Source: a bacterium 1XD21-70
Lineage (GTDB): Bacteria; Bacillota; Clostridia; Lachnospirales; Lachnospiraceae
Assembly: GCA_003669055.1 (NCBI GenBank)
Contig: RAYB01000030.1
Coordinates: forward strand, 1 to 61,993
Reading direction: 5' to 3'
Length of the DNA stretch: 61,993 nt
A program made the translations under genes and the position numbers. Below the pieces are notes generated by a model. The model did not search any database. It had not been told where the DNA came from and saw only the letters and a program-made list of their open reading frames with translations. Positions 31,919 through 50,422 of the stretch are shown here, piece after piece. Position 1 is the first letter of the stretch. Each line of letters begins with the position of its first letter.

Positions 31919-31949
31919 TGGAATTCCCAAAAAGTGTACTTTTTGGGAA
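31919..31949. repeat. Palindromic repeat, copy 1
   Basis: TTCCCAAAAAGT (31924-31935) and ACTTTTTGGGAA (31938-31949) form a perfect 12-bp stem with only two bases between. The stretch starting TGGAATTCCCAAAAAGT recurs 127 nt downstream. Confidence 0.75.
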
Positions 31950-32045
31950 TCCTGCAATTACTACAAATGACATCTTACTTTAACATAATATCGTCAGATT
32001 TTCAAGAATCTTAATCACTTTTCTTATGGATTTTTACCCATTATC

Positions 32046-32072
32046 TGGAATTCCCAAAAAGTACACTTTTTG
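32046..32072. repeat. Palindromic repeat, copy 2
   Basis: Repeats TGGAATTCCCAAAAAGT and then ACTTTTTG, differing from copy 1 only in the central two bases (AC in place of GT) within the shared stretch. Here the outer arm has decayed, leaving CAAAAAGT paired with ACTTTTTG. Confidence 0.75.
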
Positions 32073-32131: not shown

Positions 32132-33466
32132 GTGGCGCCAGATACCATATGCAAAACGGTTCACCAGTACAGCAAAGAGCCGATTCCTGATGAACAGATG
32201 GAAAAGCTTATAGCGATTGCAAAAGACTGCTGCACGGTGAAAAATTATGTATATACCCGTTATGGAGGAAAAGGGAGCCTGTCCAAACTCTACCCTGGTT
32301 ACACTGTACAAAACGAGATGACAAAATGCGGGCTGCGCATGCAGCTGGGATTGCCATCCGTATATTTTTATCTGGCCGTATTTGACGCATTGGCAGATAT
32401 TAAAAGCCAATGGACAAGAACCAAGGCCAAGGTAACGGAACTGGCAGGTAAGAATGAAGGGCTTTCTGAGCCGGAGAAGCATTATCTCCGATTTGTACTA
32501 AAGGTCAGCGGGGCTTTTGAGGCTGTTTTGAATGAGGAGCCGGTTCATCTGGATACGGAAATGCAGCAGCAGTATGAGAAGCTGGCCAGAGAAATAGACA
32601 AGGAACATCTGAACCGCTATCTGTGCCGGCAGGTACGCAAATACCACAAGCGGCAGCATACAGAAATGGCAGAGGGATTTTCCCTGTCTTTTAAAGCTTA
32701 CCGCTACAAAGACCATGGAATCTATCTTGCCACAAAAGAAAAGCGCAAACGGATCTTTGTACCATTGACCGATCATAACCAGTATGATTCTCAGATTTAT
32801 ATTAAGCTTTTTCCAGAAGAGAAACGCTTGGAGATTCGGGTGCCGGTGAAGGTGGCAGTCAGGGTTCATGATGATTACACCAGGCAGATAGGGATGTCGG
32901 TCGGACTTCTTACCATGCTGACAACGCACGAAGGCCACAGATATGGAGAAAAGCTGGGGGAATATCAGCTGGAATATTCTGACTGGATTCGGGAACAGAC
33001 CAGAAGCTATAACCATAACCGGCAGAACAATCCGGGACGGAAAAAGTACCATGCCAGGAAGAGACGGTATGAGGAAGGCCTGCACAGCTATATCAACCAG
33101 GAACTGAACCGTTTCCTGAAGACAGAGAAGCCGGAGATTATCTGGATCCCAAAGCTTCCTAGGCCGCAGGCAGGCGGCGCCAGCAGCAGGCTGAATCACA
33201 TGGCCGCCCTCTGGCAGCGGGGGTATATCCGAAAACGATTGCTGCAGAAATGTCAGGAGCAGTCCATAACCATTGTGGAAGTATTTGGCAGGAATGTCAG
33301 CAGAGAATGCAGCTATTGCGGGACTATGGGAAAGAAGGAGAAAGGGCAATTCATCTGTCCCTCCTGCGGATATCAGACCGATGACAGGATCAATGCGGCA
33401 CAGAATGCCCGGAAACGGGGGATTCTTTTAGCGAACAGAGATTACAATACGGAATTGGAAAAATAA
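32132..33466 (+). CDS. TnpB-family protein with replaced RuvC catalytic residues
   Basis: A 444-residue IS605 OrfB/TnpB homologue. The C-terminal zinc ribbon is intact (CSYC at 393-396, CPSC at 409-412). The RuvC sites are not. Site I, normally GIDLG, reads GMSVG, with Ser256 for Asp. Site II, normally IEDL, reads IPKL, with Pro340 for Glu. Site III, normally DRDxNAA, reads DDRINAA, so Arg419 stands at the usual Asp and the acidic residues are shifted. It should not cut DNA, but could still bind a guide RNA and target, as in TnpB-derived repressors. The GTG start follows AAGGAG 5 nt upstream and the frame is complete, so the gene appears maintained. No TnpA gene is nearby. First gene of the island. 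Confidence 0.85.
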   Translation: MAPDTICKTVHQYSKEPIPDEQMEKLIAIAKDCCTVKNYVYTRYGGKGSLSKLYPGYTVQNEMTKCGLRMQLGLPSVYFYLAVFDALADIKSQWTRTKAKVTELAGKNEGLSEPEKHYLRFVLKVSGAFEAVLNEEPVHLDTEMQQQYEKLAREIDKEHLNRYLCRQVRKYHKRQHTEMAEGFSLSFKAYRYKDHGIYLATKEKRKRIFVPLTDHNQYDSQIYIKLFPEEKRLEIRVPVKVAVRVHDDYTRQIGMSVGLLTMLTTHEGHRYGEKLGEYQLEYSDWIREQTRSYNHNRQNNPGRKKYHARKRRYEEGLHSYINQELNRFLKTEKPEIIWIPKLPRPQAGGASSRLNHMAALWQRGYIRKRLLQKCQEQSITIVEVFGRNVSRECSYCGTMGKKEKGQFICPSCGYQTDDRINAAQNARKRGILLANRDYNTELEK

Positions 33467-33702
33467 TCATAAGAATTGCCTCTTAGCTGAGTTCTGGTGA
33501 TGAGCCGGGATTTTACCGCAAGGACTGAGAGACCAATCATGATAAACCAGTTTAAAGAGCAGCTGGTGATAGAAAAACAACAGTCGGCATTAGAAGGCAG
33601 ATTATGTCTGCGCATTGGATAGGCCAGGACCCTGTGAACAGAAGGACTCCGCGGAGTCTTCTGATGTAGCAGGGAGCGAAGTGGAGAGATCCACATCATC
33701 AA
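33467..33702 (+). ncRNA. Candidate omega-RNA-like scaffold behind the TnpB homologue
   Basis: A 236-nt gene-free stretch directly after the TnpB-like stop codon. It holds a strong hairpin (33640-33662, core GACTCCGCGGAGTC) and a terminal stem GTGGA-GAGA-TCCAC (33681-33694) nested between GAT and ATC, ending CATCATCAA near 33702. TnpB guide RNAs come from just this place, with the guide read from sequence right after the conserved end. The guide would then be about 33703-33722, starting AAGATGACC. The boundaries are inference from structure alone. Confidence 0.5.
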
Positions 33703-33822
33703 AAGATGACCAATATGCCTTATTTAAAATGGATTGAGCACTTGTGGCAGATGGAAATTCAGGCAAGCTATTTGGAGGAATACCATTATGTCCGTATAAC
33801 GGAGTGCGAAAGGACGGAAAAC

Positions 33823-36432
33823 ATGAGAAAGGCACAGAAACAACAGGCAGAGGACTTTGTAAAGCTTCTGGACCGTGCGCACAATGAAATAAAAAAAGCA
33901 ATCGAACGAAAAGACGGGACAACTGCCGCAGATCTTCTGGAGCAGTGCCAGGACGGTGCGATTGAGCTGGGCAATATGATTGAGGCTGAGGAGGGGGAGG
34001 GCTTTGCCACTGTTTCTTTGCTGGAGGAATATTGCGAACTGGTTTACCAGATTCATGAGGCGATTTGGCATAAGATTCCTCTGAATGGGAATAAGACAGG
34101 CAAAATCCTGCGCAGGATACTGATTCGGATCGAGAATAGTATCCGTGAAGATATCAAAGTACGCCTGGAAGCCGTGTTTCTTCCGTATAAGGCATCCATG
34201 TGGGATTCCCTGGAGAGTGTGTGGAAAGCCGCAGAGGAAGACCCGGACTGTGACGCCTATGTTGTGCCGATTCCTTATTATGATAAGAACCCGGACGGGG
34301 GTTTTAAAGAAATGCACTACGAAGGGGAGGAATACCCGGATTATGTACCGGTTACCTGGTATGAGGATTATGATTTTGCAAAGCAATGTCCGGATATGAT
34401 ATTTATCCATAATCCATATGATGAATGTAACTGTGTGACCAGTGTACATCCGTTTTTTTATGCGAAAAATTTGAAACAGTTTACGGAAAAATTAATCTAT
34501 ATACCCTATTTCCTATTGGGGGAACCTGATCCGAAAAATGAGAAATCCGTTGAAGGAATCGCCCATTTTTGCACGGTTCCCGGGGTGATCTATGCAGATA
34601 AGGTGATCGTGCAGTCAGAGGCGATGAGGCAGGTTTATATCAAGGTGATGACCAGATTCACTGTGGGAAACAGGAGGAATTTGGAAGCAAGCCCGAAAGC
34701 AAGAGAAAAAGGGAATACCGGAACGGGAGTGAATGAAACAGCATGCCGGCAATACTGGGAGGAGAAGATCTTAGGCCTGGGATCCCCAAAGGTGGATAAG
34801 GTTCTTGGTACAAGGAAAGAGGATTTGCAGATTCCTGAGGAATGGCTGAGAGTGATCCGGAAAGAAGATGGGAGCTGGAAGAAGATCATTTTCTATAATA
34901 CCAGCGTGACGGCTTTGCTGGAGCACGAGGAGAAAATGCTGGCCAAGATGCGGGATGTGTTCCGGGTGTTTCGGGAGAATCAGGACGAGGTTGTATTGCT
35001 GTGGCGGCCGCATCCGCTGATAAAGGCAACGATTGAGAGTATGAGGCCAGGGCTTTGGAAGGAGTATGGGGGGATAGTAAGGGAGTATAAGAAGGCCGGG
35101 TGGGGGATATATGATGATACGGCGGATGTGGGTCGGGCGGTGGCGTTATCTGACGGGTATTATGGGGATCCGAGCAGTGTGGTCGAACTGTGCAGGAACC
35201 GAGGCCTTTGTACAATGATTCAAAATATTGATATAAGATCGGATAAAGACAGTGCCATATCAAACGACGGAATGTTTATGGAAAATGACAAGACATGGTT
35301 TGTAGGGAATTTAGATGGCATCATTTATCAGATGAATCTGTCGGATATGCTGGTACGGGCGGAAGCGGTGATTCCGGAGAATATAGGGAGTACCTATCGG
35401 ATTTCAACAGGAGTTATTAAAAAAGATCAAAAACTCTATTGCCTGCCTGATCAGGGGAGATTTATCTGGGTCTTTGATACAGAAAAGAGAAACTTCAGGA
35501 AAATAGAAATCAAGAACACGTATTTTCTGCGTATCAGTATTTTTGACAAATGGATAGTAAATGAGACGCTCTGGTGTGTATCCTATGGCATGAATCAGAT
35601 AATCGAAGTGGATTTGCAGACAGAACAGATAGCGGGTTATTATGATATATTTTCTGATCCGGAGGATTCCGTAGGATATCTGTCAGCATTCGTCGGGAAG
35701 ACTATTTATTGCGTGTCACGGACTTCAAAAAGAATATGCGCTTTTGATATTGGAACAAAAAGAGCAGAATACTATGAACTTGATATAAAAAGCAAAGGGT
35801 TTAACACCATTGCCTTTGACGGAAAAAGATTTTGGCTAAGCGGATATGCGGGAGAGGTATATTGCTGGGACAAGGAAAAGGAAAATATCCTCATTTCAGA
35901 TCCATTTCCTGATGATTATCGGATAACTGGTGACAGGGATGAGAACGGCTGCTTTACAGCGCCTTTGTTCTATCAATGTGCAGTGATGAAAGAATATGTT
36001 ATCTTTATTCCGTGGAATTCTGAAGGTGCGGTAAGTGAATCTCTGATATCGGTAAATCGGGAAAATATGGAAATCCGTATAGTGCCTTCGGAAAAAATGA
36101 CAAAGCCCGGAGAAAATTTTGCCATAGAATATCAGAAAGATGAGCGATCCCTGGTGCTGTATAACACGAGGGAGAAGTGTCTGGAAGAGTTGGATTTTGA
36201 AAAGCAAAAAATAGTCATCAAAAAAATCAAGACCGACCAGGCGTGCCCTGGGAAATTCTGGGAGGAGAATTATAATCCAGGTGATATGATTTTGGAGAAC
36301 AGCAGAAATTCAATTCGGGAATTTTATTCTGTCTTATGCGGCCGTCATAAGGATAAATCACCAGAGAAAGCAAGAACAGGAAGACAGATATTTGATTGTC
36401 TGTATGAAAAAAGCCGGAGGGGAAACCATTGA
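33823..36432 (+). CDS. Large glycerophosphotransferase-like and beta-propeller protein
   Basis: An 869-residue protein. Residues 1-110 are helical (KQQAEDFVKLLDRAHNEIKK). About 110-480 resemble the GT-B fold of CDP-glycerol glycerophosphotransferases, with VVPIPYYDKNPDG, VLLWRPHPLIKAT and GYYGDPSSVVELCR. From about 500 to 820 strand-rich repeats read like a beta-propeller (KWIVNETLWCVSYGMNQIIE, FWLSGYAGEVYCWDKE). It probably transfers a polyol phosphate or sugar to a surface or protein glycan. The frame is open back to 33706, but that part runs through the RNA-like end and lacks homology; AAAGGA precedes 33823. No signal peptide. Confidence 0.55.
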   Translation: MRKAQKQQAEDFVKLLDRAHNEIKKAIERKDGTTAADLLEQCQDGAIELGNMIEAEEGEGFATVSLLEEYCELVYQIHEAIWHKIPLNGNKTGKILRRILIRIENSIREDIKVRLEAVFLPYKASMWDSLESVWKAAEEDPDCDAYVVPIPYYDKNPDGGFKEMHYEGEEYPDYVPVTWYEDYDFAKQCPDMIFIHNPYDECNCVTSVHPFFYAKNLKQFTEKLIYIPYFLLGEPDPKNEKSVEGIAHFCTVPGVIYADKVIVQSEAMRQVYIKVMTRFTVGNRRNLEASPKAREKGNTGTGVNETACRQYWEEKILGLGSPKVDKVLGTRKEDLQIPEEWLRVIRKEDGSWKKIIFYNTSVTALLEHEEKMLAKMRDVFRVFRENQDEVVLLWRPHPLIKATIESMRPGLWKEYGGIVREYKKAGWGIYDDTADVGRAVALSDGYYGDPSSVVELCRNRGLCTMIQNIDIRSDKDSAISNDGMFMENDKTWFVGNLDGIIYQMNLSDMLVRAEAVIPENIGSTYRISTGVIKKDQKLYCLPDQGRFIWVFDTEKRNFRKIEIKNTYFLRISIFDKWIVNETLWCVSYGMNQIIEVDLQTEQIAGYYDIFSDPEDSVGYLSAFVGKTIYCVSRTSKRICAFDIGTKRAEYYELDIKSKGFNTIAFDGKRFWLSGYAGEVYCWDKEKENILISDPFPDDYRITGDRDENGCFTAPLFYQCAVMKEYVIFIPWNSEGAVSESLISVNRENMEIRIVPSEKMTKPGENFAIEYQKDERSLVLYNTREKCLEELDFEKQKIVIKKIKTDQACPGKFWEENYNPGDMILENSRNSIREFYSVLCGRHKDKSPEKARTGRQIFDCLYEKSRRGNH

Positions 36433-37964
36433 CAGAGGTTGTGATTTTTGGGACAGCACAAAGAGGAGAGGAAGCATATGAGATATTAACCTGTATTTCC
36501 GGGTACAAAGTGGCTGCATTCTCGGATAACGAGGTATCGAAATGGAATACGAAAAAAAGAGGGTTAGATATTATTCCTCCGGAAAAAATCAGAGAGGAAT
36601 ATCCGGAGGCTGTTCTGGTGATAGCCAGTTCCTTTTATGTGCCGATCCGGAGGCAGCTGGATGGAAATGGCTGGATTCCCCGGGGAGGCTGTTTTGACAG
36701 TGTAACTCAGATTGTCGGTGGTTTGACGGAAGGAGAAAAGGACTTTTTGAGTCTTTTTGTGAAAAGAAAGACTCGATTTTATAATCTGCGTTATACGGAG
36801 AGAGAGGTTGCCAATACCGAGGATTACTGCATGGAGAGGTATCTGGTTATTTGCAACGGAGGATATCCGAAAAAAGGCAATCCCCGGTGCGCTTTTGTAC
36901 ACCGGAGGGTTTTGGAATATATAAAATCAGGGCTCAGAGTTGAGGCTTTCGGATTGATACCGGATACTTCTTTGGAAAGCTATGAATATCAAGGGGTGAG
37001 GGTATGGGAAGGGGGAGTAACAGAATTACAGAAGGTATTGAAAGCAGGTAATTACAAAAAGATTTTAATACATTTTGTGGATGAGTACATAATGGATTCC
37101 GTATGGAAGGCAGGATATATCGATAAACCTATGCTGATCTGGGGGCATGGATATGAGATGCAGCCATGGACGCGCACCTGGTTTAATTATACAGAAGCAG
37201 AAATACAGGCGCAGAGACAGAATTGGAAGCAAAGGGATGATTTCCGGAAAAAATTCCTGAAAGAACTTTTTCACAGAGAGAATATTTTATTTATTTTTGT
37301 ATCTGACTGGCTGAAAAACAGAACAAAGAAATTTGTTGGATGTTGTCCTGCTGATTATACAGTAATACCGAATTTTATTGATTGCGGCTTTTATCAATCG
37401 CCGGAAAGAAAGGAAGAGGACAGGCTCCATATTTTATCCATAAAAAATCATAATGCACGTACCTATGCGAATGACCTGACAGCGAAAGCTATTTTGGAAT
37501 TGTCGGAGAAAGAATTTTTCAATGAACTTTCCTTTGAATTATATGGGGACGGAGTGCTGTTTGAAGAGAATTTTGGTGAGTTAATAAACAGAGATTTTTC
37601 TAATGTCCATATCCACAGGGGGTTTGTAAGCCAGGAGCAGATGAGGGATCTTTATAAAGAAAACGGGATTTTCTTATCTCCCACCAGGATGGATTCTCAT
37701 CAGGTTACGGCAGGCGAAGCCATGTCAGCGGAAATGGCAGTGGTAACCAGCAGTATCGGGCCAATGAATGAATTTATGGATGAGGATAGTGCATCACTGT
37801 TTGAATCTGAAAATTATAGGATGATGGCAGAGGAGATAGAATATTTATATGATCATCCGGAAGAATTTTTGGAAAAGTGTAAAAATGCAAAAAAGAGGGT
37901 GGAGCGGCAATGCGGTTATAACAGCACAGTGAAAAGAGAAATCGCTCTGATTTTGAAAACCTGA
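36429..37964 (+). CDS. GT4 glycosyltransferase with N-terminal Rossmann-like module
   Basis: A 511-residue protein. Residues 1-100 are a Rossmann-like module (VVIFGTAQRGEEAYEIL, then AAFSDNE). The remainder is a GT-B transferase of the GT4 type: YLVICNGGYPKKGNPRCAFV near residue 135, and the nucleotide-sugar site around FLSPTRMDSHQVTAGEAMSA with the E of the EX7E pattern. The donor and acceptor are unknown. The TTG start overlaps the previous stop and has GGAGGGG upstream. Cytosolic or membrane-attached. Confidence 0.75.
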   Translation: MTEVVIFGTAQRGEEAYEILTCISGYKVAAFSDNEVSKWNTKKRGLDIIPPEKIREEYPEAVLVIASSFYVPIRRQLDGNGWIPRGGCFDSVTQIVGGLTEGEKDFLSLFVKRKTRFYNLRYTEREVANTEDYCMERYLVICNGGYPKKGNPRCAFVHRRVLEYIKSGLRVEAFGLIPDTSLESYEYQGVRVWEGGVTELQKVLKAGNYKKILIHFVDEYIMDSVWKAGYIDKPMLIWGHGYEMQPWTRTWFNYTEAEIQAQRQNWKQRDDFRKKFLKELFHRENILFIFVSDWLKNRTKKFVGCCPADYTVIPNFIDCGFYQSPERKEEDRLHILSIKNHNARTYANDLTAKAILELSEKEFFNELSFELYGDGVLFEENFGELINRDFSNVHIHRGFVSQEQMRDLYKENGIFLSPTRMDSHQVTAGEAMSAEMAVVTSSIGPMNEFMDEDSASLFESENYRMMAEEIEYLYDHPEEFLEKCKNAKKRVERQCGYNSTVKREIALILKT

Positions 37965-37978
37965 CGAGGAGGAATTCC

Positions 37979-38677
37979 ATGAAATTCACAGAAGAGGATT
38001 ATGAATATTTAAGAGGTGAAAAATTTTCCAGCGGTTATCATTTGAAATTAAAAAATAATGCAGGCTTTAGCAGACAGGAACTTTTGATAAATCTTGTACA
38101 GGGAAAGAACTGTATCCATGTTGGCTGCTGTGACCATATTGCTTTGATTCAGGATAAGGCAGCAAATAGGAATTGGCTGCATGGAGAACTGGAGAATTGC
38201 TGTACGGATGTATTGGGAATTGATATCAATCAACAGGCTGTGGATTTTGTCAATGAAAAAGGATTCAGCAAACGGAGAGTATATTGTGCGGATGTTACAT
38301 CCCCGGATTTTCTGAAAAAAGTTCCCCATAAAAATTATGATTATATTTTACTCGGGGAGATTATCGAACATGTAGATAATCCGGTTTGGTTTTTGGCAAA
38401 AATGAGAACAGTGCTCAACGAATACGGTTTTATGGGCAAGTATATTATAACCGTTCCCAATGCGTTCTGCTTTTTAAAAACATCTGTTTACCAAGAGGGA
38501 ATAGAATTTATAAACAGTGATCATCGATATTGGTTTACTCCCTATACTATCGCTAAAATTATGATAGAGGCTAAGATTGTGCCGGAGGAATTATTTTTTG
38601 CAAATTATGGAAGAATGGGTAATGAGGATATTGAAAAAAGCTATCAAGGCGACCAGATAGTGATTATGGGGCATTAA
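37979..38677 (+). CDS. Class I SAM-dependent methyltransferase
   Basis: A 232-residue methyltransferase. SAM motif I is CIHVGCCDHIAL, LGIDINQQAVDFV is the ribose-binding acidic loop, and YILLGEIIEHVDNP is motif post-II. It probably methylates a sugar or glycan end of the island product. GAGGAGG precedes the ATG, 14 nt after the preceding stop. Confidence 0.8.
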   Translation: MKFTEEDYEYLRGEKFSSGYHLKLKNNAGFSRQELLINLVQGKNCIHVGCCDHIALIQDKAANRNWLHGELENCCTDVLGIDINQQAVDFVNEKGFSKRRVYCADVTSPDFLKKVPHKNYDYILLGEIIEHVDNPVWFLAKMRTVLNEYGFMGKYIITVPNAFCFLKTSVYQEGIEFINSDHRYWFTPYTIAKIMIEAKIVPEELFFANYGRMGNEDIEKSYQGDQIVIMGH

Positions 38678-38702
38678 AATTATTTTGACAGAGGGAAAAT
38701 GT

Positions 38703-39779
38703 ATGAAATATGCATTGATCGGCTGCGGCAGAATTTCTCCAAACCATGTAGCAGCTGCCGGGAAAAGCGGACTGAATATCGTTGCCCTTGTAGATGTGGA
38801 CGAGAATAGGGTGCATGATTTGCTTGTAAAAATGAACATGCAGAAATATGGCATTCATATCTACACTGATTATAAAGAAATGCTGGGCAAAGAAAAGCCG
38901 GAACTTGTGGCAATTGCCACAGAAAGCGGAAAGCATGCTCAGATTGCACTGGATTGCCTGGAATATCACTGTAATTTAATTATTGAAAAGCCAATAGCAC
39001 TTTCTCTTGAGGATGCGGATGCAATTATAGAAAAAGGTAAGGAAAAGAGGGTAAAAATCTGTGCCTGCCATCAAAATCGATTTAATAAATCAATCCAAAA
39101 AATAAGAAGTGCAATAGAAGAAAACCAATTTGGACGGCTTTTATACGGGACGGCTCATGTGCGCTGGAACAGGGGATATCAGTATTATGCGGATGCAAAA
39201 TGGCGGGGGACATGGGAAATGGACGGAGGTGCCTTGATGAATCAATGTATCCATAACCTTGACCTGCTGCGCTGGATGATGGGGGATGAAATCGATACTG
39301 TATTTGGGATGACGGATCGGTTAACGCACCCTTATATAGAAGCAGAGGATATGGGGATAGCCCTGATTAAATTTAAAAACGGAAGCTATGGAATAGCCGA
39401 AGGAACTACTGATATTTATCCTGAAAATCTGGAAGAAACTTTGTATATCTTTGGAGAAAGAGGAACAGCAAAGGCAGGGGGGAAATCAGTTAACACTATT
39501 GAGGAATGGAAGGTTTCAGGAGATTTGCAGGAGTCAGAGCAGATCAAGAAAGAATATAGTGAATATCCGCCAAATGTATATGGGTATGGCCACTTAAAGC
39601 TGTATCAGGATGTTATATGTTCACTCAGAGGCGAAAAAGAACTATTGGTTGATGCAGAAGCAGGAAAACGAGCCTTGGAACTGGTTCTTGCAATCTACCA
39701 ATCAGCGTTTGAAGGAAGACCGGTAAAATTGCCTTTAGATAAATGTTCGTCGGTTGATTTTAAAGGAAGGTTTCAGTGA
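38703..39779 (+). CDS. Gfo/Idh/MocA oxidoreductase, WlbA/WbpB-like
   Basis: A 358-residue NAD-dependent dehydrogenase. The Rossmann motif is YALIGCGRISPNHVAA, LIIEKPIALSLEDAD carries the conserved EKP lysine, and GALMNQCIHNLDLLRWMMGD the catalytic His. In the WbpB/WlbA branch it oxidises C3 of UDP-N-acetylglucosaminuronic acid, preparing it for amination. The 6-dehydrogenase, aminotransferase, acyltransferase and 2-epimerase of that route are all encoded in the same island, which supports this assignment. I start at 38703 (MKYALIG). Confidence 0.85.
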   Translation: MKYALIGCGRISPNHVAAAGKSGLNIVALVDVDENRVHDLLVKMNMQKYGIHIYTDYKEMLGKEKPELVAIATESGKHAQIALDCLEYHCNLIIEKPIALSLEDADAIIEKGKEKRVKICACHQNRFNKSIQKIRSAIEENQFGRLLYGTAHVRWNRGYQYYADAKWRGTWEMDGGALMNQCIHNLDLLRWMMGDEIDTVFGMTDRLTHPYIEAEDMGIALIKFKNGSYGIAEGTTDIYPENLEETLYIFGERGTAKAGGKSVNTIEEWKVSGDLQESEQIKKEYSEYPPNVYGYGHLKLYQDVICSLRGEKELLVDAEAGKRALELVLAIYQSAFEGRPVKLPLDKCSSVDFKGRFQ

Positions 39780-39781
39780 CA

Positions 39782-40210
39782 ATGAGAGGTGCAATGGACG
39801 AGAAAACAGAAGAATTGTTGAGCCTTTATGCAGATGAAACAGATGTTATAACCGCCTGCTACGAAATGATGGGAAAGCTTTTGAATCGGGATCGGGTTAC
39901 ATCCCGTGTGAAAGAATTAGAGATCAGGGATTTGTATATTTATGGGGGCGGATATTTAGGAATTCAATTATACCGCGCATTGGAAGGGCAGGCAAAAGTG
40001 CTATCTGTTGTGGATAAAAGCGGCGGGCTTATACTTGGCATTCCTGATATACCAGTTATAAACAGTAAGCAGTTCCAAGCTGAATACAGGAATGAATGGG
40101 TTATTATTACGCCAATTAAACATTACCGTTCGATATACGATGAATTGATACCATTTGTATCGGCAGATAAAATCCTTTTTTTAGGAGAATTTTATGGGGG
40201 AAAAGGATGA
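39782..40210 (+). CDS. Small Rossmann-like protein of unknown function
   Basis: A 142-residue protein. After a helical lead it has one Rossmann-like module: LYIYGGGYLGIQLYRAL, SVVDKSGG and EWVIITPIKHY. The same module is fused to four larger island proteins. It may be a partner of the neighbouring transferases or bind a nucleotide sugar. The start is uncertain: ATG at 39782 has AAGGAAGG upstream, but 39794 has GAGGTG. ATGA overlap with the next gene. Confidence 0.6.
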   Translation: MRGAMDEKTEELLSLYADETDVITACYEMMGKLLNRDRVTSRVKELEIRDLYIYGGGYLGIQLYRALEGQAKVLSVVDKSGGLILGIPDIPVINSKQFQAEYRNEWVIITPIKHYRSIYDELIPFVSADKILFLGEFYGGKG

Positions 40211-41301
40211 TATTTTATATTACCTTTAAGGATCTGTACAGTACCGGATATGCAGGAATACGAAAAAAAGTAATTGCGCAAACAAAGGCTCTTGAAAATA
40301 AACTGGGGAAATTATGCGTTGCATTTTGGTGTAATCAGATGGCTTTTTTGATGCAGGAAGAAAATGTCATTGAAAAAAGAGTAGCAGTAACGAGAAAAGA
40401 GTATGGCAATGTGCTGTTGTCCTGGATAGAGAAATACGATGTTGACAGAACCTATGTCAGATATCCCCTGTCAGACAAATTTTTCCTTGAATTTTTGAAT
40501 TTTCAGAAAGAAAAAGGAATTCGGACAGTTCTGGAGATTCCGACATATCCCTACGATGCAGAACTTCCTTTTGGAAGGTTAAAAGGAGAGGACGCTTATT
40601 ACAGAGAAATGGTTGGGGAATATGTAGATGTTATTTCAACATATTCCAATGATTCAGAAATCTGGGGAAAGAGATGTATCAGATTGGTAAACGGAGTGGA
40701 TGTGGAAAAGATACCTTTTTTTCATGGAAAAAAAGAAAATAATAAAATCATCCTGATCGCGGTCGGGTGTATGGAGCCATGGCATGGTTTTGAGCGAATT
40801 CTGGAAGGAATGGGGAATTATTATCATGCAGGAGGAAAAAGACAGGTTTATTTCCGATTAGTGGGAGAAGGAGTTGAACTGAATCGATACAGAAGAGAAG
40901 CCGAACGTTTGGAAGTACAGGATTATGTGGAGATTCTGGGACAAAAAGAAGGAGAGGACTTGACAAAATGCTTTTATGATACGGATATCGCCATAGGGTC
41001 TTTGGGGTATTATAAAAATGGCATACAGGAAGGAAGCCCGATAAAAGGAGCAGAGTATTGTGCAAGAGGATTACCGATGGTGCTTGGGTATGATGATATG
41101 CGTTTCCCGGAAAAAACTCCTTTTGTTTTTCGGGTGCCGAATGACAGTTCTGCTATACCTATAGACGATATCATAAAATTTCACGATCATATTGCCGCAC
41201 AGGAAAATTACAGGGAAAAAATACGAAGCTATGCGGTAAAGTATTTATCCTGGGATACTGTAATGGAGCCGGTGGCAGAATATTTCAGAGAAAGAAGTTA
41301 A
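40207..41301 (+). CDS. GT4-type glycosyltransferase
   Basis: A 364-residue GT-B enzyme. IRLVNGVDVEKIPF is the typical linker motif, IILIAVGCMEPWHGFERILEG starts the donor domain, YFRLVGEGVELNRYRREAE and SPIKGAEYCARGLPMVLG match the family end. It joins a sugar from a nucleotide donor to the growing glycan; no specificity can be read. Overlaps the small upstream gene by 4 nt, so they are coupled. Confidence 0.8.
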   Translation: MIFYITFKDLYSTGYAGIRKKVIAQTKALENKLGKLCVAFWCNQMAFLMQEENVIEKRVAVTRKEYGNVLLSWIEKYDVDRTYVRYPLSDKFFLEFLNFQKEKGIRTVLEIPTYPYDAELPFGRLKGEDAYYREMVGEYVDVISTYSNDSEIWGKRCIRLVNGVDVEKIPFFHGKKENNKIILIAVGCMEPWHGFERILEGMGNYYHAGGKRQVYFRLVGEGVELNRYRREAERLEVQDYVEILGQKEGEDLTKCFYDTDIAIGSLGYYKNGIQEGSPIKGAEYCARGLPMVLGYDDMRFPEKTPFVFRVPNDSSAIPIDDIIKFHDHIAAQENYREKIRSYAVKYLSWDTVMEPVAEYFRERS

Positions 41302-41307
41302 ACGTTG

Positions 41308-42624
41308 ATGAAAGAAAAGCTGCTCAAAAAAATTCAACAAAAAGAAATTACAGTCGGGGTTATCGGACTGGGTTATGTAGGGCTTCCTCTTGCGGTAGAA
41401 AAGGCAAAGGCAGGATTTTGCACGATTGGTTTTGATGTTCAGACGGGGAAGGTCGATCTCGTAAATCAGGGGAAGAATTATATTGGCGATGTTGTAGACC
41501 AGGATCTGGCTTTCCTGGTGAACCAGGGACAGTTATCAGCAACAACAGATTTTGCCTTTATTCAGGATGTTGATTTTATAGCAATCTGCGTCCCGACACC
41601 ATTGGATGCTCATCAGGAGCCGGATATCCGGTATGTAAAGCAGTCGGCGGAAAATATTGCAAAATATCTGACGCCAGAAACAGTAGTTGTGCTGGAATCC
41701 ACGACATATCCGGGAACAACAGAGGAACTGGTAAAACCCATATTAGAAAATGGTTCCGGTCTGGAATGCGGAAAGGATTTTTATCTGGGTTTTTCACCGG
41801 AGAGAGTCGATCCGGGAAATCTGATCTATAAAACGAAAAACACTCCGAAAGTAGTCGGAGCAATTGGCAAGGATGCGGCAGAAGTGATTTCTGCCATGTA
41901 TACCGCAGTTTTGGACAGCGAAGTATATACGGTATCCAGCCCGGCAGTGGCGGAAATGGAAAAAATACTGGAGAATACTTATCGCAACGTTAATATTGGC
42001 TTGATTAATGAAATGGGCAGGCTGTGTCATGAAATGGGAATTTCCGTTTGGGAAGTGATTGATGCAGCTAAAACGAAGCCCTATGGTTTTCAGGCATTCT
42101 ATCCGGGGCCGGGACTTGGAGGGCATTGTATTCCTTTGGATCCCTATTATTTATCATGGAAAGCAAGAGAGTATGGATTTCATACAACATTAATTGAAAG
42201 CAGCATGGTAATTAATGATGGACAACCGGAATATTGTGTAGACCGTGCCATGCATCTTTTAAACCGCTGCCAGAAGGCAATCAACGGGGCGAAAGTATTG
42301 TTATTGGGAATTTCCTATAAGCAGGATATTGATGATTATCGTGAAAGTCCGGCCATTCGTGTTTACTACAAATTAAAAGAGTTGGGTGCAGCGGTAAATT
42401 ATTTCGATCCCTGGGTGCCAGAATTTAAAGACAAATTTGGAAACAATATAAAAGGAATTCCAGAACTTGCGCCAGAGATACTGGAAGCAGGCGATCTTGT
42501 TATGATTACCTGTGCACATACAGGAATTGATTATGAAATGGTGCAGCAGCATGCAAGACTTATATTCGATACGAAGAATGCGATGAAGCATATCAGGGTA
42601 AGAGATAATATTGAGGTGTTATAA
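41308..42624 (+). CDS. UDP-N-acetylhexosamine 6-dehydrogenase (WbpA/WecC-like)
   Basis: A 438-residue NAD-dependent enzyme that oxidises C6 of a UDP-N-acetyl-hexosamine to the uronic acid. Signatures: VGVIGLGYVGLPLAVEKAKA, ESTTYPGTTEELV, and the catalytic-Cys block GPGLGGHCIPLDPYYLSW. In the WbpA route it makes UDP-GlcNAcA; in a WecC route UDP-ManNAcA. The presence of a 3-dehydrogenase and aminotransferase favours the first. ATG at 41308 is preferred over TTG at 41305. It ends directly against the epimerase gene. Confidence 0.9.
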   Translation: MKEKLLKKIQQKEITVGVIGLGYVGLPLAVEKAKAGFCTIGFDVQTGKVDLVNQGKNYIGDVVDQDLAFLVNQGQLSATTDFAFIQDVDFIAICVPTPLDAHQEPDIRYVKQSAENIAKYLTPETVVVLESTTYPGTTEELVKPILENGSGLECGKDFYLGFSPERVDPGNLIYKTKNTPKVVGAIGKDAAEVISAMYTAVLDSEVYTVSSPAVAEMEKILENTYRNVNIGLINEMGRLCHEMGISVWEVIDAAKTKPYGFQAFYPGPGLGGHCIPLDPYYLSWKAREYGFHTTLIESSMVINDGQPEYCVDRAMHLLNRCQKAINGAKVLLLGISYKQDIDDYRESPAIRVYYKLKELGAAVNYFDPWVPEFKDKFGNNIKGIPELAPEILEAGDLVMITCAHTGIDYEMVQQHARLIFDTKNAMKHIRVRDNIEVL

Positions 42625-43716
42625 ATGAAAATCGTTTCTGTTGTAGGTGCGCGCCCGCAATTTATAAAGGCAGCTATGGTTTCCCATGTTTTACGAAAAG
42701 GACATAAAGAAATTTTGGTACATACAGGGCAGCATTATGATTATAATATGTCAGAACGCTTTTTTGAAGAGTTGTCGATTCCAAAGCCGGACTATAATCT
42801 TGGCATTTGCGGCGGAAGCCATGCACAGATGACAGGGAAAATGATGATGGCGTTGGAAGAGGTGTTGATGAAGGAGGAGCCGGATTGGCTCCTGGTATAT
42901 GGAGATACCAATTCAACACTGGCAGCAGCGCTGGCAGCAGTAAAATTGCATATTCCTATTTGCCATGTGGAGGCCGGGGCGAGGGTACATAGTATGGAGA
43001 ATCCGGAAGAAATAAACCGTATCTGTACCGACCATGTATCGTCTCTGCTGCTCGCAAGCACTGTCAGCGGACTCGAGGAAATGAAAAGGGAAGGGTTATA
43101 TGAAAGAACCATGCTTGTGGGAGATATCATGCTTGATGCTTTTCAGAAATACAGCCAGGAGATTCCAGCAGGCGCTATGGTAATTCCGTCATTAGATGGG
43201 AACGTGATAAGCATACCAGAGGATTTTTATTATTTAACCTGTCACCGTGAAGAAAACACAAATCGTGATAATTTATATGAAATATTCAGGGCAATGGAAA
43301 GTCTGGATAAAAAAGTGGTTTATCCGGTTCATCCCCGTAATCAGTTAAGCGCCCTGCGCCTGCAAAAAGAATACCGATTGCAGAATTTGATTCTTGTGGA
43401 ACCCGTGGGATATTTGGAAAGCATTTATCTGGTGAATCATTCAAAAAAGATAATCACGGACTCTGGCGGTTTGCAGCGGGAGGCCTTTTTTGCGGAAAAA
43501 AAGTGTGTCACAATCTTTGACCATGTCATATGGCCGGAAACCATGGTGGATAACAGAAATCTGCTTGCAAAGCCTCAAAAGGAAGATATTCTTGCCAAGT
43601 TAAGGATTCCGCAAAAGATAAATGACAGTTACCAGCCCTTCGGAGATGGGAATGCTGCGGGGAAAATCCTGTCTGCGCTTGAAAAGAGCCAAAGGGAGAG
43701 GGAGATAAAAAAGTAA
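42625..43716 (+). CDS. UDP-N-acetylglucosamine 2-epimerase family (WecB/WbpI-like)
   Basis: A 363-residue non-hydrolysing 2-epimerase. Signatures: SVVGARPQFIKAAMV, LVYGDTNSTLAAALAA, HVEAGARV and ITDSGGLQREAFF. It inverts C2 of the sugar nucleotide, giving the manno form; in this setting probably UDP-GlcNAc3NAcA to UDP-ManNAc3NAcA, as WbpI does. GAGGTG lies 7 nt ahead of the ATG. It shares its operon with the 6-dehydrogenase directly upstream. Confidence 0.88.
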   Translation: MKIVSVVGARPQFIKAAMVSHVLRKGHKEILVHTGQHYDYNMSERFFEELSIPKPDYNLGICGGSHAQMTGKMMMALEEVLMKEEPDWLLVYGDTNSTLAAALAAVKLHIPICHVEAGARVHSMENPEEINRICTDHVSSLLLASTVSGLEEMKREGLYERTMLVGDIMLDAFQKYSQEIPAGAMVIPSLDGNVISIPEDFYYLTCHREENTNRDNLYEIFRAMESLDKKVVYPVHPRNQLSALRLQKEYRLQNLILVEPVGYLESIYLVNHSKKIITDSGGLQREAFFAEKKCVTIFDHVIWPETMVDNRNLLAKPQKEDILAKLRIPQKINDSYQPFGDGNAAGKILSALEKSQREREIKK

Positions 43717-43717
43717 A

Positions 43718-44623
43718 ATGTTCCTTTTTAGCGAGATGGGAAAAAAGAAGGATTTCAAAGCGGAATACCGGATAATAAGGGAAAGCCCTTTTGAAGTTCT
43801 TGCTTTATGTGATATGGCGATTCCAAAGAAAACCTGCACGTTTCTTGAGGATGAAAAATATATTCCTTTTTTAAAAGACAACATATCCATGGTGATTACA
43901 ACTGGCCAGATTGCAGCAAAGCTGGAGTTAAAACAGGAAGGAATCATAGTTACAGAACATCCAAGAATACTGTTTTTCCAGATTCACAACTTTCTTGCCG
44001 ATGATGAAAAATACAAAAGAAAAGAAAATAAAAATTTTATCTCAAATAAAGCAAACATCAGTGAAATGGCATGGATAGCAGGGCATGATGTGCGGATTGA
44101 AGAAAATGTATTGATAGAACCCTTTGTAACCATATACCCTCATGTGCATATAGGAAAAAATACGGTTATTCGGTCAGGTGCACGGATAGGTGGGGAAGGA
44201 TTTGAATTTAAAAGATTTGCAGAAAAGATAATCCCGGTAAAGCATCTGGGAGGAGTAGAAATAGGCTCTGATGTAGAGATCCAGAACAATTCCTGTATAG
44301 ATAAGGCGGTTTATCCCTGGGATAATACTGTGATAGGAGATGATACGAAAGTCGATAATCTGGTATATATTGCCCATGGGGTAAAGGTAGAACCCAATGT
44401 TTTGATTGCCGGAAACAGTGGGATAGGCGGAAGGACGGTTATCGGCAGGGATACATGGATTGGACTTGGCTCGGAGGTCAGGAACGGTCTGAATATCGGG
44501 AAGAGCGCAAGGATAAATATGGGAGCTGTTGTGACAAAGCCGGTTATGGATGGCCAGTCGGTATCCGGGAATTTTGCTGTGGAGCATCATGAATTTTTGA
44601 AATTCATGAAAAAACAGAGATAA
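43718..44623 (+). CDS. LpxD-like beta-helix acyltransferase
   Basis: A 301-residue protein. The first 100 residues are an alpha/beta domain, then come hexapeptide repeats of a left-handed beta-helix (IEENVLIEPFVTIYPHVHIG). The order GGVEIGSDVEIQNNSCIDKA, VDNLVYIAHGVKVEPNVLIA and GRDTWIG matches LpxD more than the short WbpD acetyltransferases. Since the organism appears Gram-positive, lipid A is unlikely. It may supply the N-acyl group at C3 of the diamino uronic acid. The start is 1 nt after the preceding stop. Confidence 0.75.
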   Translation: MFLFSEMGKKKDFKAEYRIIRESPFEVLALCDMAIPKKTCTFLEDEKYIPFLKDNISMVITTGQIAAKLELKQEGIIVTEHPRILFFQIHNFLADDEKYKRKENKNFISNKANISEMAWIAGHDVRIEENVLIEPFVTIYPHVHIGKNTVIRSGARIGGEGFEFKRFAEKIIPVKHLGGVEIGSDVEIQNNSCIDKAVYPWDNTVIGDDTKVDNLVYIAHGVKVEPNVLIAGNSGIGGRTVIGRDTWIGLGSEVRNGLNIGKSARINMGAVVTKPVMDGQSVSGNFAVEHHEFLKFMKKQR

Positions 44624-44659
44624 ATTTTCAAAATCGGCAGAATATGAAGAGGAACTGTT

Positions 44660-45799
44660 ATGGAATTCAGGGATTTAAGACAGCAATACTGTCATTTAAA
44701 GGCTGATATAGACAAGGCAATTCAGCAGGTGCTGCTATCGTCGAATTTTATTGGCGGAGCAGAAGTGAGGCAATTAGAAGAAAGATTAGAAAGGTATACA
44801 GGAAGTAAATTTTGTATTACCTGTGCGAACGGAACAGATGCATTGACGTTAGCGCTTAAGGCATGGAATGTAGGAGCAGGGGATGCTGTTTTTGTGCCGG
44901 ATTTTACCTTTTTTTCTTCTGGTGAGGCTCCAGCCTGTGAGAAGGCAACCCCTGTTTTTGTAGACGTAGATGAATTTACATACAATCTGAATCCTATCTG
45001 TTTGGAAAAAACAGTTTTGCAGGTGCTGGCAGAAGGCAAATATACCCCAAAGGCAGTAATTGCTGTGGATTTATTCGGTCAGCCGGCAGAATACAAAGAA
45101 ATCAGAAGGATTTGCCAGAAATACGGATTATATTTGCTGGAGGATGGAGCACAAGGCTTTGGAGGGGCTATCGAAGAAAAAAGGGCATGTAGTTTTGGGG
45201 ATATTTCAATTACGAGTTTTTTTCCGGCAAAGCCATTGGGATGCTATGGGGATGGAGGTGCAGTCTTTACAGATAATCGCGAGTGGGCGGATTTAATTCG
45301 CAGTATGGCCGTACATGGGAAAAATGCGGAAGATAAGTATGATAATGTCCGTATTGGTATGAACAGCCGCCTGGATACAGTGCAGGCAGCTGTTTTGAGG
45401 GTGAAATTAGAGGCCTTTCAGAGATATGAATTGCAGGCAGTGAATCAGGTGGCAAGCTGGTATTATGAGTTGCTGGAAGATACAGATATCGGGCTTCCAA
45501 CAATAAAGGAAAGATATTCTAGCAGCTGGGCCCAGTTTACAATTCGCCTTCCAAAAAGAACAGATCGATATGAATTGCAAAGATACTTAAACGCACAGGG
45601 CATACCGACCATGATATATTATCCTAAGCCCATGCACAGGCAAGGGGCTTTTCTGGAAGAAAATATCGAAAAAAGAGACTGTCCGGTCACAGAAAAGTTA
45701 TGCTGCGAGGTCTTAAGCCTGCCAATCCATCCCTATATGAAGAAGGCGGATGTGGAAAAAGTTGTCTGCGGGATAAAAGAACACATTATAAAATTTTAA
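44660..45799 (+). CDS. DegT/DnrJ/EryC1 sugar aminotransferase (WbpE-like)
   Basis: A 379-residue PLP enzyme that transfers an amino group to a keto-sugar nucleotide. Signatures: SSNFIGGAEVRQLEERLERY, TCANGTDALTLALKA, DLFGQPAEY and the PLP-lysine segment SFFPAKPLGCYGDGG. With the WbpB-like dehydrogenase it would aminate C3 of UDP-3-keto-GlcNAcA. AGAGGAAC precedes the ATG. Confidence 0.9.
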   Translation: MEFRDLRQQYCHLKADIDKAIQQVLLSSNFIGGAEVRQLEERLERYTGSKFCITCANGTDALTLALKAWNVGAGDAVFVPDFTFFSSGEAPACEKATPVFVDVDEFTYNLNPICLEKTVLQVLAEGKYTPKAVIAVDLFGQPAEYKEIRRICQKYGLYLLEDGAQGFGGAIEEKRACSFGDISITSFFPAKPLGCYGDGGAVFTDNREWADLIRSMAVHGKNAEDKYDNVRIGMNSRLDTVQAAVLRVKLEAFQRYELQAVNQVASWYYELLEDTDIGLPTIKERYSSSWAQFTIRLPKRTDRYELQRYLNAQGIPTMIYYPKPMHRQGAFLEENIEKRDCPVTEKLCCEVLSLPIHPYMKKADVEKVVCGIKEHIIKF

Positions 45800-45839
45800 T
45801 CTCTGAAAAGGGAACCTGTTATAAGTTAAAGGAGAAAGT

Positions 45840-46769
45840 ATGCCAAAAGTATCTGTTATTATGCCTTCTTATAATAAAGAAAAATATATAGGAAAAGCAA
45901 TGGAATCGATTATTAGACAGACCTATTCTGATTGGGAATTGATTATTATTGATGATTGCTCTTCAGATAACAGCGTTAAGGTTATTCACTCCTTTCAGGA
46001 TAAAAGAATCCGTTTTTACGAAAACACCTGTAATATTGGAATTGCAGAAAACCGGAATAGAGGGATTGAACTTGCAAACGGGAAATATATTGCTCTTTTA
46101 GATGCAGATGATATCAGCTTGCCGCGACGTCTGGAAAAAGAAGTAGATTATTTGGAACAGCATCCGGAGATCGATGTTGTTTTTGGCGGATTTAATGAGA
46201 TAGATGACCAGGATATGGTTCGGGAAACCTATTTTTCTCCGTTAAGAAATCCAAAGTATGTCAGGGCAAATCTGATGATTATGGATGTGATTCCTAATAG
46301 TTCCTGTATGTATAGAAAAAGCTTTATTAATCAATATAAGATTCGCTATCGGGACGGATATTTAGGAATGGATGATTATCTGTTTTGGATTGAATGTTCA
46401 TTGCATGGAAATATTTCCGGGATACCGGATTTGTTTTTATATTGGAGGAATACATCAGACAATGGAACAAACAGGTATAAATACAGTCCTCAATACAGGG
46501 AAATCAGAGAGAAAAAATACAGTGAAATATTAAAATTTGCATTGCAGGAAAATGGTTTTGAACTTAATGAAAAAGAAACAGAATTATATTGTAAAATACT
46601 ATCTGAATATAAGTATAAGATCATAAATAAGAATGAAATTCTCGATTGGTATCATTTGGTTAGAAAAATTTGCCGTCAGGCAGAACGAAGAGACAATTGT
46701 TGGGAAATCCAGAAAGTATTTAAAAAACAGTTTGGCATATGCCTGGAAAATTCATATCTTTGGGACTGA
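45840..46769 (+). CDS. GT2 glycosyltransferase
   Basis: A 309-residue GT-A family transferase. The N-terminus PKVSVIMPSYNKEKYIGKAM and the metal-binding LLDADDISLPRR (DxD-like) are typical; VIPNSSCMYRK and GMDDYLFWIECS complete the donor and acceptor sites. It has no membrane segment. Sugar unknown. AAAGGAG lies 6 nt ahead of the ATG. Confidence 0.88.
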   Translation: MPKVSVIMPSYNKEKYIGKAMESIIRQTYSDWELIIIDDCSSDNSVKVIHSFQDKRIRFYENTCNIGIAENRNRGIELANGKYIALLDADDISLPRRLEKEVDYLEQHPEIDVVFGGFNEIDDQDMVRETYFSPLRNPKYVRANLMIMDVIPNSSCMYRKSFINQYKIRYRDGYLGMDDYLFWIECSLHGNISGIPDLFLYWRNTSDNGTNRYKYSPQYREIREKKYSEILKFALQENGFELNEKETELYCKILSEYKYKIINKNEILDWYHLVRKICRQAERRDNCWEIQKVFKKQFGICLENSYLWD

Positions 46770-46783
46770 ATGAGGTGAGATTC

Positions 46784-48013
46784 ATGAAAGTGTTGCTATT
46801 TGGCGCCGGGATTAACGGAAAGAAGGTGCTGTCCTTTTTAAAAGAAGGTATTGAGATTATCGCTATATTGGACAATGACAAACAGAGGTGGGGAAACCTA
46901 TATGAGGGAATTTCTGTCATATCTCCAGAAAAGGGAATAAGATATGATTTTGATTATTTGATTGTAACTGTCCGAAAAGGATACGAAGCAATTTCCGAGC
47001 AAATGATAAATTGCGGGGTGCAAGAAGAACAAATCGTGATTCCTTTTTCTTTTGATCATGATAAGTATCATGAATGGAGAGCAATTTTTAATATTGAAGA
47101 ATTAATATATATGGAAATGCAGCAAAAGATGGAAAACTTGTCCTATCATCTTGAAAATCTGGAATATGAAATAGCAGCAAAGATAAAAAATGGACATATG
47201 GTGTTTCCTAAGGTTCTCAGTGCAGAGGCGGCGATAGATGAGATTATAAAAAACAAAAAGTCCATGAGCAGGTATGGCGATGGTGAATGGGATCTTGCTC
47301 TGGGAAGGGATAATTCTTTTCAAAAATCAGATGGAAAGCTAAGAAGGCGGTTGAAGGAAATTCTTGTAAGCAACTTAGAGAATCATATTGTGGCAATTCC
47401 GGATATTTATGGTGAGTTGCCCAACCGCACAGAAGAGTTTAAAGAATGCTTCCGCCGCCATCTGGGTTCGGGGAGAAGGCTGCAGGAGTACGGGATGCTT
47501 GATATGGAAAAGGAATATTATGATTCTTTTATTACACGGCCATATAAGGACTTTGTGGATCGAACTGATGCGAGGGAAAAATTTGACAGGATAAAAAGTA
47601 TCTGGGAAAACCGGCAATTAACCATTGTGGAGGGAGAAAAGACAAGGCTGGGAATGGGGAATGATCTGTTTTCGAATGCCGGATCCTGTATTCGTATTTT
47701 GTGTCCCCCGGTTAATGCCTTTGATCATTATGATAAGATTCTTGCGGCTGTGAAGGAAACTGACAGGGAAAGCCTGGTATTGATTGCATTGGGGGCAACG
47801 GCAACTGTATTATCCTATGATTTGGCCAGAGAAGGCTATCAGGCTATTGATATCGGTCATATTGACATTGAATATGAGTGGTTTTTACGGAATGCAAAAG
47901 ACAGCATTCCAATAGACGGAAAATATGTCAATGAGGCAGCCGGAGGAAGAATGGTTACGGATGAGAAGGTTGATGATCAATATAAAAATGAAATATGGAA
48001 AGTAATAAGGTAA
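46784..48013 (+). CDS. GT-D fold glycosyltransferase (DUF1792/SP_1767-like) with Rossmann module
   Basis: A 409-residue protein. Residues 1-90 are the Rossmann-like module found in other island genes (KVLLFGAGINGKKVLSFL, AILDNDKQRWG). From about 150 onward it matches the SP_1767 GT-D family, known from the glycosylation island of pneumococcal serine-rich repeat adhesins: SMSRYGDGEWDLALGRDNSF holds the acidic metal site and SLVLIALGATATVLSYDLA the C-terminal strand. I start at 46784, because GAGGTGA lies 6 nt upstream; the frame stays open back to 46739 inside the preceding gene. Confidence 0.82.
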   Translation: MKVLLFGAGINGKKVLSFLKEGIEIIAILDNDKQRWGNLYEGISVISPEKGIRYDFDYLIVTVRKGYEAISEQMINCGVQEEQIVIPFSFDHDKYHEWRAIFNIEELIYMEMQQKMENLSYHLENLEYEIAAKIKNGHMVFPKVLSAEAAIDEIIKNKKSMSRYGDGEWDLALGRDNSFQKSDGKLRRRLKEILVSNLENHIVAIPDIYGELPNRTEEFKECFRRHLGSGRRLQEYGMLDMEKEYYDSFITRPYKDFVDRTDAREKFDRIKSIWENRQLTIVEGEKTRLGMGNDLFSNAGSCIRILCPPVNAFDHYDKILAAVKETDRESLVLIALGATATVLSYDLAREGYQAIDIGHIDIEYEWFLRNAKDSIPIDGKYVNEAAGGRMVTDEKVDDQYKNEIWKVIR

Positions 48014-48021
48014 AAGCTGTG

Positions 48022-49182: not shown

Positions 49183-49235
49183 ATTTCATTTCTAAATGTT
49201 GATTTGTGCACAGGCGAAAGGAGCCCAACCCCACT

Positions 49236-50315: not shown

Positions 50316-50422
50316 AGAGAGAAATCCATGAGCCGGAAATGATTGCGGCAATGAGGCAGGACAGAGAGACTAAAGAGCATTCTGAAGAACAGCCAGGACA
50401 ACAGGAAGAGGAGAGAACAGAA

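Follow-up and report, generated by a model that had tools for sequence, protein, structure and literature searches.

TnpB proteins of IS200/IS605 elements have a characteristic fold and a zinc ribbon, and their genes carry an RNA at the 3′ end; the TldR clades described to date include one associated with oppF. A csrA-associated TldR clade of Oscillibacter and Flavonifractor, described in 2026, targets flagellin reading frames, is predicted to cross-target, and has promoter inversions upstream (PMC13418256); in the same text, a 6-nt seed suffices for the phage-borne fliC-TldR of Enterobacter (PMC13418256). In Bacteroides, the regulator genes for UpxY and UpxZ lie at the start of capsule operons, and UpxZ represses capsule operons that are not adjacent to it (PMC7315117). 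Here we consider a gene at positions 32132-33466 of a 61,993-nucleotide stretch of DNA from bacterium 1XD21-70 (positions 1-61,993 of contig RAYB01000030.1, assembly GCA_003669055.1), which in its entirety we call the window. The gene encodes a TnpB-fold protein that lacks the RuvC acids, is preceded by an inverton and followed by a structured RNA, heads a glycan island, and belongs to a family whose guides match sites in other such islands more often than shuffled guides do. Based on these features, we think it rather likely that the protein is a TldR-type, nuclease-dead TnpB that acts as an RNA-guided repressor in a surface-glycan phase-variation circuit.

The nuclease-dead protein and its guide RNA

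The features of the gene are as follows.
32132..33466, + strand: nuclease-dead TnpB homologue (TldR-like), 444 aa, from the open reading frame, Pfam, structure model and alignment
32897..32899, + strand: codon of Ser256 at the RuvC-I position, from the family alignment
33149..33151, + strand: codon of Pro340 at the RuvC-II position, from the model and family alignment
33386..33388, + strand: codon of Arg419 at the RuvC-III position, from a profile and the family alignment
33308..33367, + strand: zinc ribbon, Cys393 to Cys412, from Pfam and the family alignment

The reading frame is complete, begins with GTG, and carries AGGAG five bases 5′ of the start. In Pfam it matches nothing but the Cas12f1-like/TnpB zinc ribbon (PF07282, E 6.8e-11), and a match to the NCBIfam model guided_TnpB (E 2.9e-11) lies under that model's curated cut-off. 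An AlphaFold model built from 41 sequences (mean predicted local distance difference test score, pLDDT, 86) was compared with the PDB using Foldseek and matched AsCas12f (8j12, E 1.3e-11), ISFba1 TnpB (8iaz, E 2.5e-11), a further TnpB (8h1j, E 1.3e-10, target-normalized TM-score, TMt, 0.69) and ISDra2 TnpB (8exa, E 8.6e-7), such that homology and predicted structure both place the protein in the TnpB/Cas12f fold.

The RuvC D/E/D triad of an active nuclease is missing from this protein and from the aligned members of its family. Specifically, among 97 aligned copies (five loci occur under two names, leaving about 92 distinct ones), position 256 is Ala in 61 and Ser in 36; position 340 is Val in 54, Pro in 21, Ala in 16, Ile in 4, and Met and Thr in one each; and position 419 is Lys in 88, Arg in 7, Gly in one and a gap in one, with no acidic residue at any of the three. 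The zinc-ribbon cysteines are retained (393 and 396 in 97/97; 409 and 412 in 96/97, with one gap). An intact TnpB from a genome of the same genus has the motifs GIDLG, SENL and DRDINAA at the three sites. For RuvC-III, a profile alignment to solved Cas12f chains agrees with the register. The RuvC-II register at Pro340 is taken from the family alignment together with the model; one alignment placed the RuvC-II Glu of the intact TnpB on Glu332 and not on Pro340, but since the RuvC-II strand spans 334-341 in the model, we attribute that placement to a misplaced gap.

A sequence-only reading of this DNA had proposed dead RuvC sites at these three residues, an intact zinc ribbon, a complete frame with a good ribosome binding site, and no TnpA partner, and each of these points holds, including the last (a Pfam scan of 27 window proteins revealed no TnpA). 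The structure model that it suggested for the three sites supports the TnpB fold and places the RuvC-II strand. It had also allowed that the acids might be displaced and still present in the fold. At sites I and II, no displaced acid was found in the 97 copies; at site III one may exist, as 76 of 97 copies have Glu at position 418, adjoining the lost Asp.

Decay of the gene would be expected to leave randomly broken frames in close relatives, and these were not seen. The gene occurs in 11 of 61 related genomes, which together contain 17 full-length copies without internal stops plus four fragments; a single full-length copy with an internal TGA (G255) was found outside that set. Relative to the nearest copy, the non-synonymous rate (dN) is 0.024 and the synonymous rate (dS) 0.184, giving a dN/dS of about 0.13, the mark of a frame that is under purifying selection as judged from these sequences. 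With the RuvC acids lost, the zinc ribbon kept and dN far below dS, the gene therefore appears to be maintained without its nuclease.

A strongly conserved non-coding stretch separates the stop codon from the next gene and has these features.
33586..33714, + strand: conserved core of the guide-RNA scaffold; a start of the RNA further 5′, near 33508, is possible
33614..33618 and 33710-33714, + strand: proposed pseudoknot, 5′ arm ATTGG and partner CCAAT
33715..33730, + strand: guide, of which the first 11 nt, ATGCCTTATTT, were compared

The complete core is found in 74 of 97 loci, of which 50 are non-redundant and 32 were aligned. In this alignment seven helices are paired in 96.7% of cells, and changes on both sides occur in 16 of the 32 pairs as compared with 7.7 after shuffling, with none of 500 shuffles as high by any of five measures; when the consensus fold is predicted freely, 19 of its 32 pairs show such changes. 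These data point to a structured guide RNA that is encoded together with the gene. The scaffold's 3′ end reads ...GATGACCAAT, and the guide then begins at window position 33715. An alternative in which the guide is the variable sequence after CTTATT was dropped, as the covarying hairpin and the ATTGG/CCAAT pairing put the start at 33715. Guides could be extracted from 70 of 80 named loci and mostly start with [AG]T[GAT][CT][CT]TTATT, diverging thereafter. Two loci (L166 and L170, CAJTFE) have the start ATATCGGTTATAAAAA, which is unlike the rest of the family.

Guides and their sites in glycan islands

The sites that the guides match are found either in non-coding leaders 40-140 nt past a guide or in c1, the first gene of the island, at the codons for LVYIPYF; leaders without c1 also have the site. 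In the window, the relevant features are these.
33823..36432, + strand: c1, first island gene, GT-B-like glycan enzyme, 869 aa
34501..34511, + strand: own-c1 equivalent of the target site, mismatching the guide at nt 3 and 6 and with no AGTATAT before it

Four leaders (L103, L104, L120 and L129) contain a tandem pair of target-like sites behind one guide.

The comparison of guides with sites covers 21 genomes, 49 guides and 56 sites, after removal of three pattern hits that are not guides (L025 18371, L125 11321 and L288 12398). An exact, non-self match over 11 nt was found for 9 of 47 guides, as compared with 2.8 after shuffling (P 0.0006), and with up to one mismatch for 26 of 47 versus 15.0 (P 0.0002). 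All 11 exact pairs, which involve seven distinct sites, have AGTATAT directly before the site, as do 29 of the 56 sites overall, which suggests that AGTATAT is a candidate target-adjacent motif (TAM). Furthermore, the site pattern outnumbers its reverse in the 11 genomes with the gene (22 versus 10) and not in 25 genomes without it (14 versus 38; these 25 come from a group of 26 that belong to the same genus or family, with G029 omitted).

It is worth considering that these matches could be a by-product of shared ancestry, in which guides and sites are AT-rich, c1-related pieces that do not pair functionally. Guide starts and c1 sites are indeed alike across the family, and the guides of one genome are related. 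However, when the shuffle keeps the guides of each genome together, exact matches are still in excess (2.3 expected, P 0.0026), as are those with up to one mismatch (18.0 expected, P 0.016); AGTATAT is common to every exact pair, and the site also occurs in leaders that have no c1. We therefore regard this explanation as unlikely.

Individual matches connect islands within a genome. The guide of a paralogue on contig C80 of the 1XD21-70 genome has a 17-nt exact match, including two bases before the guide, in the c1 gene on contig C55, located in an own-genome search using the common start of guides; no dead TnpB copy was found in the C55 island. In Sporofaciens musculi, the exact pairs form a chain: the guides of L114 and L168 match the leaders of L162 and L165, and the guides of L162 and L165 in turn match the leader of L122. 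Ten more pairs contain a single G·U-type wobble; one of them joins the window's guide to c1 of the paralogue's island on C80, and another is a self-pair in genome G022. The 21 exact or one-wobble edges contain no cycles besides one self-loop. For the family, guides are thus predicted to be complementary to host targets beside a shared motif, and for the window's guide there is one near match.

Two proposals had been made for what such a guide might control: the island that the gene heads, or a competing surface structure. The second is supported by the covarying RNA, the excess of non-self matches and the conservation of the dead frame, whereas the first is not supported, with no exact 11-nt match in 35 guide-own-site pairs. 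A form of the first proposal deserves attention, namely auto-regulation, in which the complex would bind the leader or c1 just downstream and tune its own operon. In many loci the guide-to-site distance is only 40 to 1000 nt, the L025 guide of G022 is one wobble away from a match in its own c1, and the L284 guide of G072 matches its own leader with two wobbles. This has to be set against the 9 of 47 guides with exact non-self matches and against the distribution of intact sites: in a c1 set assembled without bias, a relaxed GTNTAT-flanked, TTATT-type site is present in 3 of 14 islands with the gene and in 7 of 11 without it (Fisher P 0.049), and the strict AGTATAT form in 2 of 14 versus 5 of 11 (P 0.18). 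We consider auto-regulation improbable. In a set built partly on the site pattern, intact c1 sites number 2 of 19 versus 9 of 13 (P 0.0016), a stronger difference than in the unbiased set. Self-protection of guide-bearing islands through codon drift in c1 is suggestive only.

The inverton, the island and the family

Upstream of the gene is a putative invertible promoter with the following parts.
31929..31944, + strand: left inverted arm (AAAAAGTGTACTTTTT), part of the only such site pair with this spacing in its own genome
32056..32071, - strand: right inverted arm (reverse complement of AAAAAGTGTACTTTTT)
31945..32055, no strand: invertible segment, 111 bp, inverted in a near-identical locus of G022
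31977..32005, - strand: sigma-70-like promoter in the inverton, with -35 TTGAAA at 32000-32005, -10 TAAAGT at 31977-31982 and a spacer of 17

The arms are 127 bp apart. In this assembly the inner promoter is directed away from the gene, which we read as OFF, and in G022 it faces forward; specifically, when the G022 segment is reverse-complemented, the inner 111 bp agree with it at 108 of 111 positions, as compared with 67 of 122 aligned columns in the same orientation. In addition, two contigs of the 1XD21-70 genome terminate exactly at the paralogue's arm (G000:C64:33902-33919 and G000:C80:186494-186511), as would be expected if reads there carried both orientations. The near-identical loci and the contig ends indicate that the upstream segment inverts. 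Among 93 loci for which 250 nt or more of upstream sequence is available, 58 have recognizable paired arms (54 of 88 when loci with two names are counted once), and by an ad hoc consensus score the inner promoter of these 58 points away from the gene in 40 and toward it in 8, with 10 ties. Inverted repeats around a promoter that occurs in both orientations across loci are the features of a phase-variable promoter, as which we provisionally classify it.

Several upstream regions are of further note. A tyrosine recombinase gene (Phage_integrase, E 1.1e-25) lies directly upstream of the dead TnpB at L029:7283-8443 (G036), and by clustering the same is found in a locus on G013 C5; inverton arms were not recognized in these loci. 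At L024 (G022:C33), two inverted N-terminal dead-TnpB fragments with 79-83 bp inverted repeats lie upstream of the intact copy (-957 to -262), and may be a duplication or both inverton states assembled. Upstream of L110 and L129, inverted repeats of 135 and 166 bp surround the inverton, where both orientations were possibly joined in one contig.

Downstream, the gene heads a glycan island (33823-51085), of which c1 is followed by this remainder.
36429..51085, + strand: glycosyltransferases, UDP-sugar dehydrogenase, UDP-GlcNAc 2-epimerase, DegT aminotransferase and others, from Pfam

The flanks are a YceD gene with a short open reading frame that we take to encode ribosomal protein L32 on one side, and a PF02504 gene, presumably plsX, on the other. 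The c1 protein weakly matches CDP-glycerol glycerophosphotransferases (E 0.015) and, in its modelled structure, is similar to UDP-GlcNAc 2-epimerases and to multienzymes of capsule synthesis; its family, which is also the main coding target within other islands, is present in 15 of 19 loci and, by motif, in 30 of 80 named loci. A same-strand gene comes next in 70 of 77 named loci, and in six other sampled loci the genes downstream include sugar nucleotidyltransferases and glycosyltransferases. Together with the lack of TnpA among the window proteins, this arrangement looks like a stable association with non-transposon genes.

The chromosomal context of the islands bears on another explanation, that the gene is what is left of a TnpB element carried along by mobile glycan islands and has no current regulatory function. 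TnpB genes are transposon genes, gene fragments exist, and the near-identical G022 locus has the same island and gene at a chromosomal place other than that of the window. Yet a remnant would fit poorly with a dN/dS of about 0.13, with 17 full-length open copies in 11 genomes, with a covarying RNA, and with the fixed order of inverton, gene, RNA and island, and we hold this to be very unlikely. In L035 (G017:C21), the chromosomal neighbors are those of the window, but the dead TnpB and the island between them are not, which suggests an exchange hotspot.

The family is patchy in its distribution, because in an even sample of 250 genomes of the bacterial family only 6 have a full-length relative of at least 44% identity (16 have a match at E ≤ 0.001). 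A scan of GTDB representative genomes yielded 219 relatives, the best 80 of which are the named loci; among these 80, hosts are mostly Lachnospiraceae where the record title gives a group, and include Sporofaciens musculi, Schaedlerella arabinosiphila, Acetatifactor muris and Dorea sp. 5-2. Ten genomes searched whole have 2 to 8 matches each, and that of Sporofaciens musculi, on one 5.4-Mb contig, has seven full-length copies. One relative (L181, 49% identity) sits on a viral (IMG/VR) contig.

A candidate repressor circuit and its described counterparts

Taken as a repressor circuit, the parts could work as follows. With the promoter turned toward the gene, a single transcript would give rise to the guide RNA and encode both the protein and the enzymes of the island. 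Protein and RNA would form a complex that binds sites in the leader or c1 of other glycan islands, with the flanking AGTATAT as TAM, and the bound complex would stop RNA polymerase there. As the victim's own tldR and guide are located upstream of the target in each case, silencing could proceed in chains, from A to B and from B to C, so that the top active island would be the one expressed. In this genome, the likely chain would run from the window island to the paralogue's island on C80 and from there to the island on C55. The protein probably helps to choose which sugar coat the cell wears.

A number of observations speak against this repressor circuit. Exact matches are absent for 38 of 47 guides, most of the genomes being drafts. 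For the guide of the window, no exact target exists in the 1XD21-70 genome, and its best partner there, c1 on C80, requires a G·U wobble at nt 3; allowing up to three mismatches, a search of that genome returned eight matches, one of which is the guide itself, as compared with nine for the reversed pattern, with a maximum of 16/18. The sites of ten named genomes were located partly with the site pattern itself, and are therefore biased toward intact sites. Own-site avoidance is not significant in the full set (up to one mismatch in 2 of 35 pairs versus 4.7 after shuffling, P 0.09) and reaches significance only for AGTATAT sites taken alone (0 of 14 versus 2.6, P 0.034), and the G022 self-pair runs counter to it. 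In 35 of 93 loci no inverton was recognized. Finally, the ATTGG/CCAAT pairing is present in 32 of 32 rows and invariant, hence without covariation, and the pseudoknot is plausible and not proven because these pairs never vary. As to absent targets, the named relatives are mostly drafts or metagenome-assembled genomes, and absent targets may therefore be absent contigs.

Binding could also have an outcome other than repression: the complex may be an RNA-guided activator or anti-terminator, or the guide may steer the inversion or transfer of islands. The outcome of binding is not legible in the sequence, and the tyrosine recombinases beside dead TnpB in G036 and in one G013 locus would suit a steering role. 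Nonetheless, the sites lie within the c1 or leader of a competitor, where a bound complex is expected to block polymerase, and the TldRs described so far are repressors (PMC13418256). We give this alternative little weight.

If a repressor circuit of this type exists, RNA-guided transcription control would reach beyond flagellin and include the surface polysaccharides of commensal gut bacteria, one-at-a-time display would be explained in Gram-positive gut bacteria with many glycan islands, and the proteins would be compact, natural dCas-like repressors with a guide of only ~11 nt. One can imagine, with somewhat more doubt than belief, an RNA-programmed hierarchy in gut Lachnospiraceae in which each glycan island has a flippable promoter, a dead TnpB and a guide pointing down the hierarchy, and in which the c1 genes of guide-bearing islands have drifted synonymously away from targetable codons as self-protection while keeping LVYIPYF. 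The seven full-length copies on the single contig of Sporofaciens musculi make the prediction directly testable.

It is informative to compare this locus with the systems described above. With IS200/IS605 TnpB it shares the fold, the zinc ribbon and an RNA 3′ of the gene; it differs in having lost three catalytic acids, in having no TnpA found nearby, and in a guide that is conserved and matched to host islands. No report of a glycan-linked dead TnpB was found in the literature searched, most subscription papers being outside that search, and the terms glycosyl, polysaccharide, capsul and Lachnospir do not occur in the main text of PMC13418256. The likely outcome, one coat at a time, resembles that of UpxY/UpxZ, which are proteins acting on transcription anti-termination, whereas here an RNA guide would pick the target (PMC7315117); no NusG-like anti-terminator or inhibitor was matched by Pfam in the window protein or its scanned neighbors. 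Like the fliC-TldR of Enterobacter, the system would silence a rival surface structure by RNA guidance while its own version is expressed, although the former is prophage-encoded, enterobacterial and partnered with flagellin (PMC13418256). Similar features are found in the csrA/fliC-associated TldR clade as described: a dead RuvC, a guide RNA downstream, targets inside competitor reading frames, several loci per genome, predicted cross-targeting and ~120-bp promoter inversions upstream (PMC13418256). In contrast to the csrA-associated clade as described there, partners and targets here are surface-glycan islands and not flagellin, no CsrA or Hin is present in the loci examined, dedicated non-coding leaders are targets, the hosts are Lachnospiraceae, and the inverton arms are of another kind. 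TldRs as such were already known; what appears to be new is a glycan-linked version in Lachnospiraceae with its own leader targets, in which the same logic would be applied to another surface structure.
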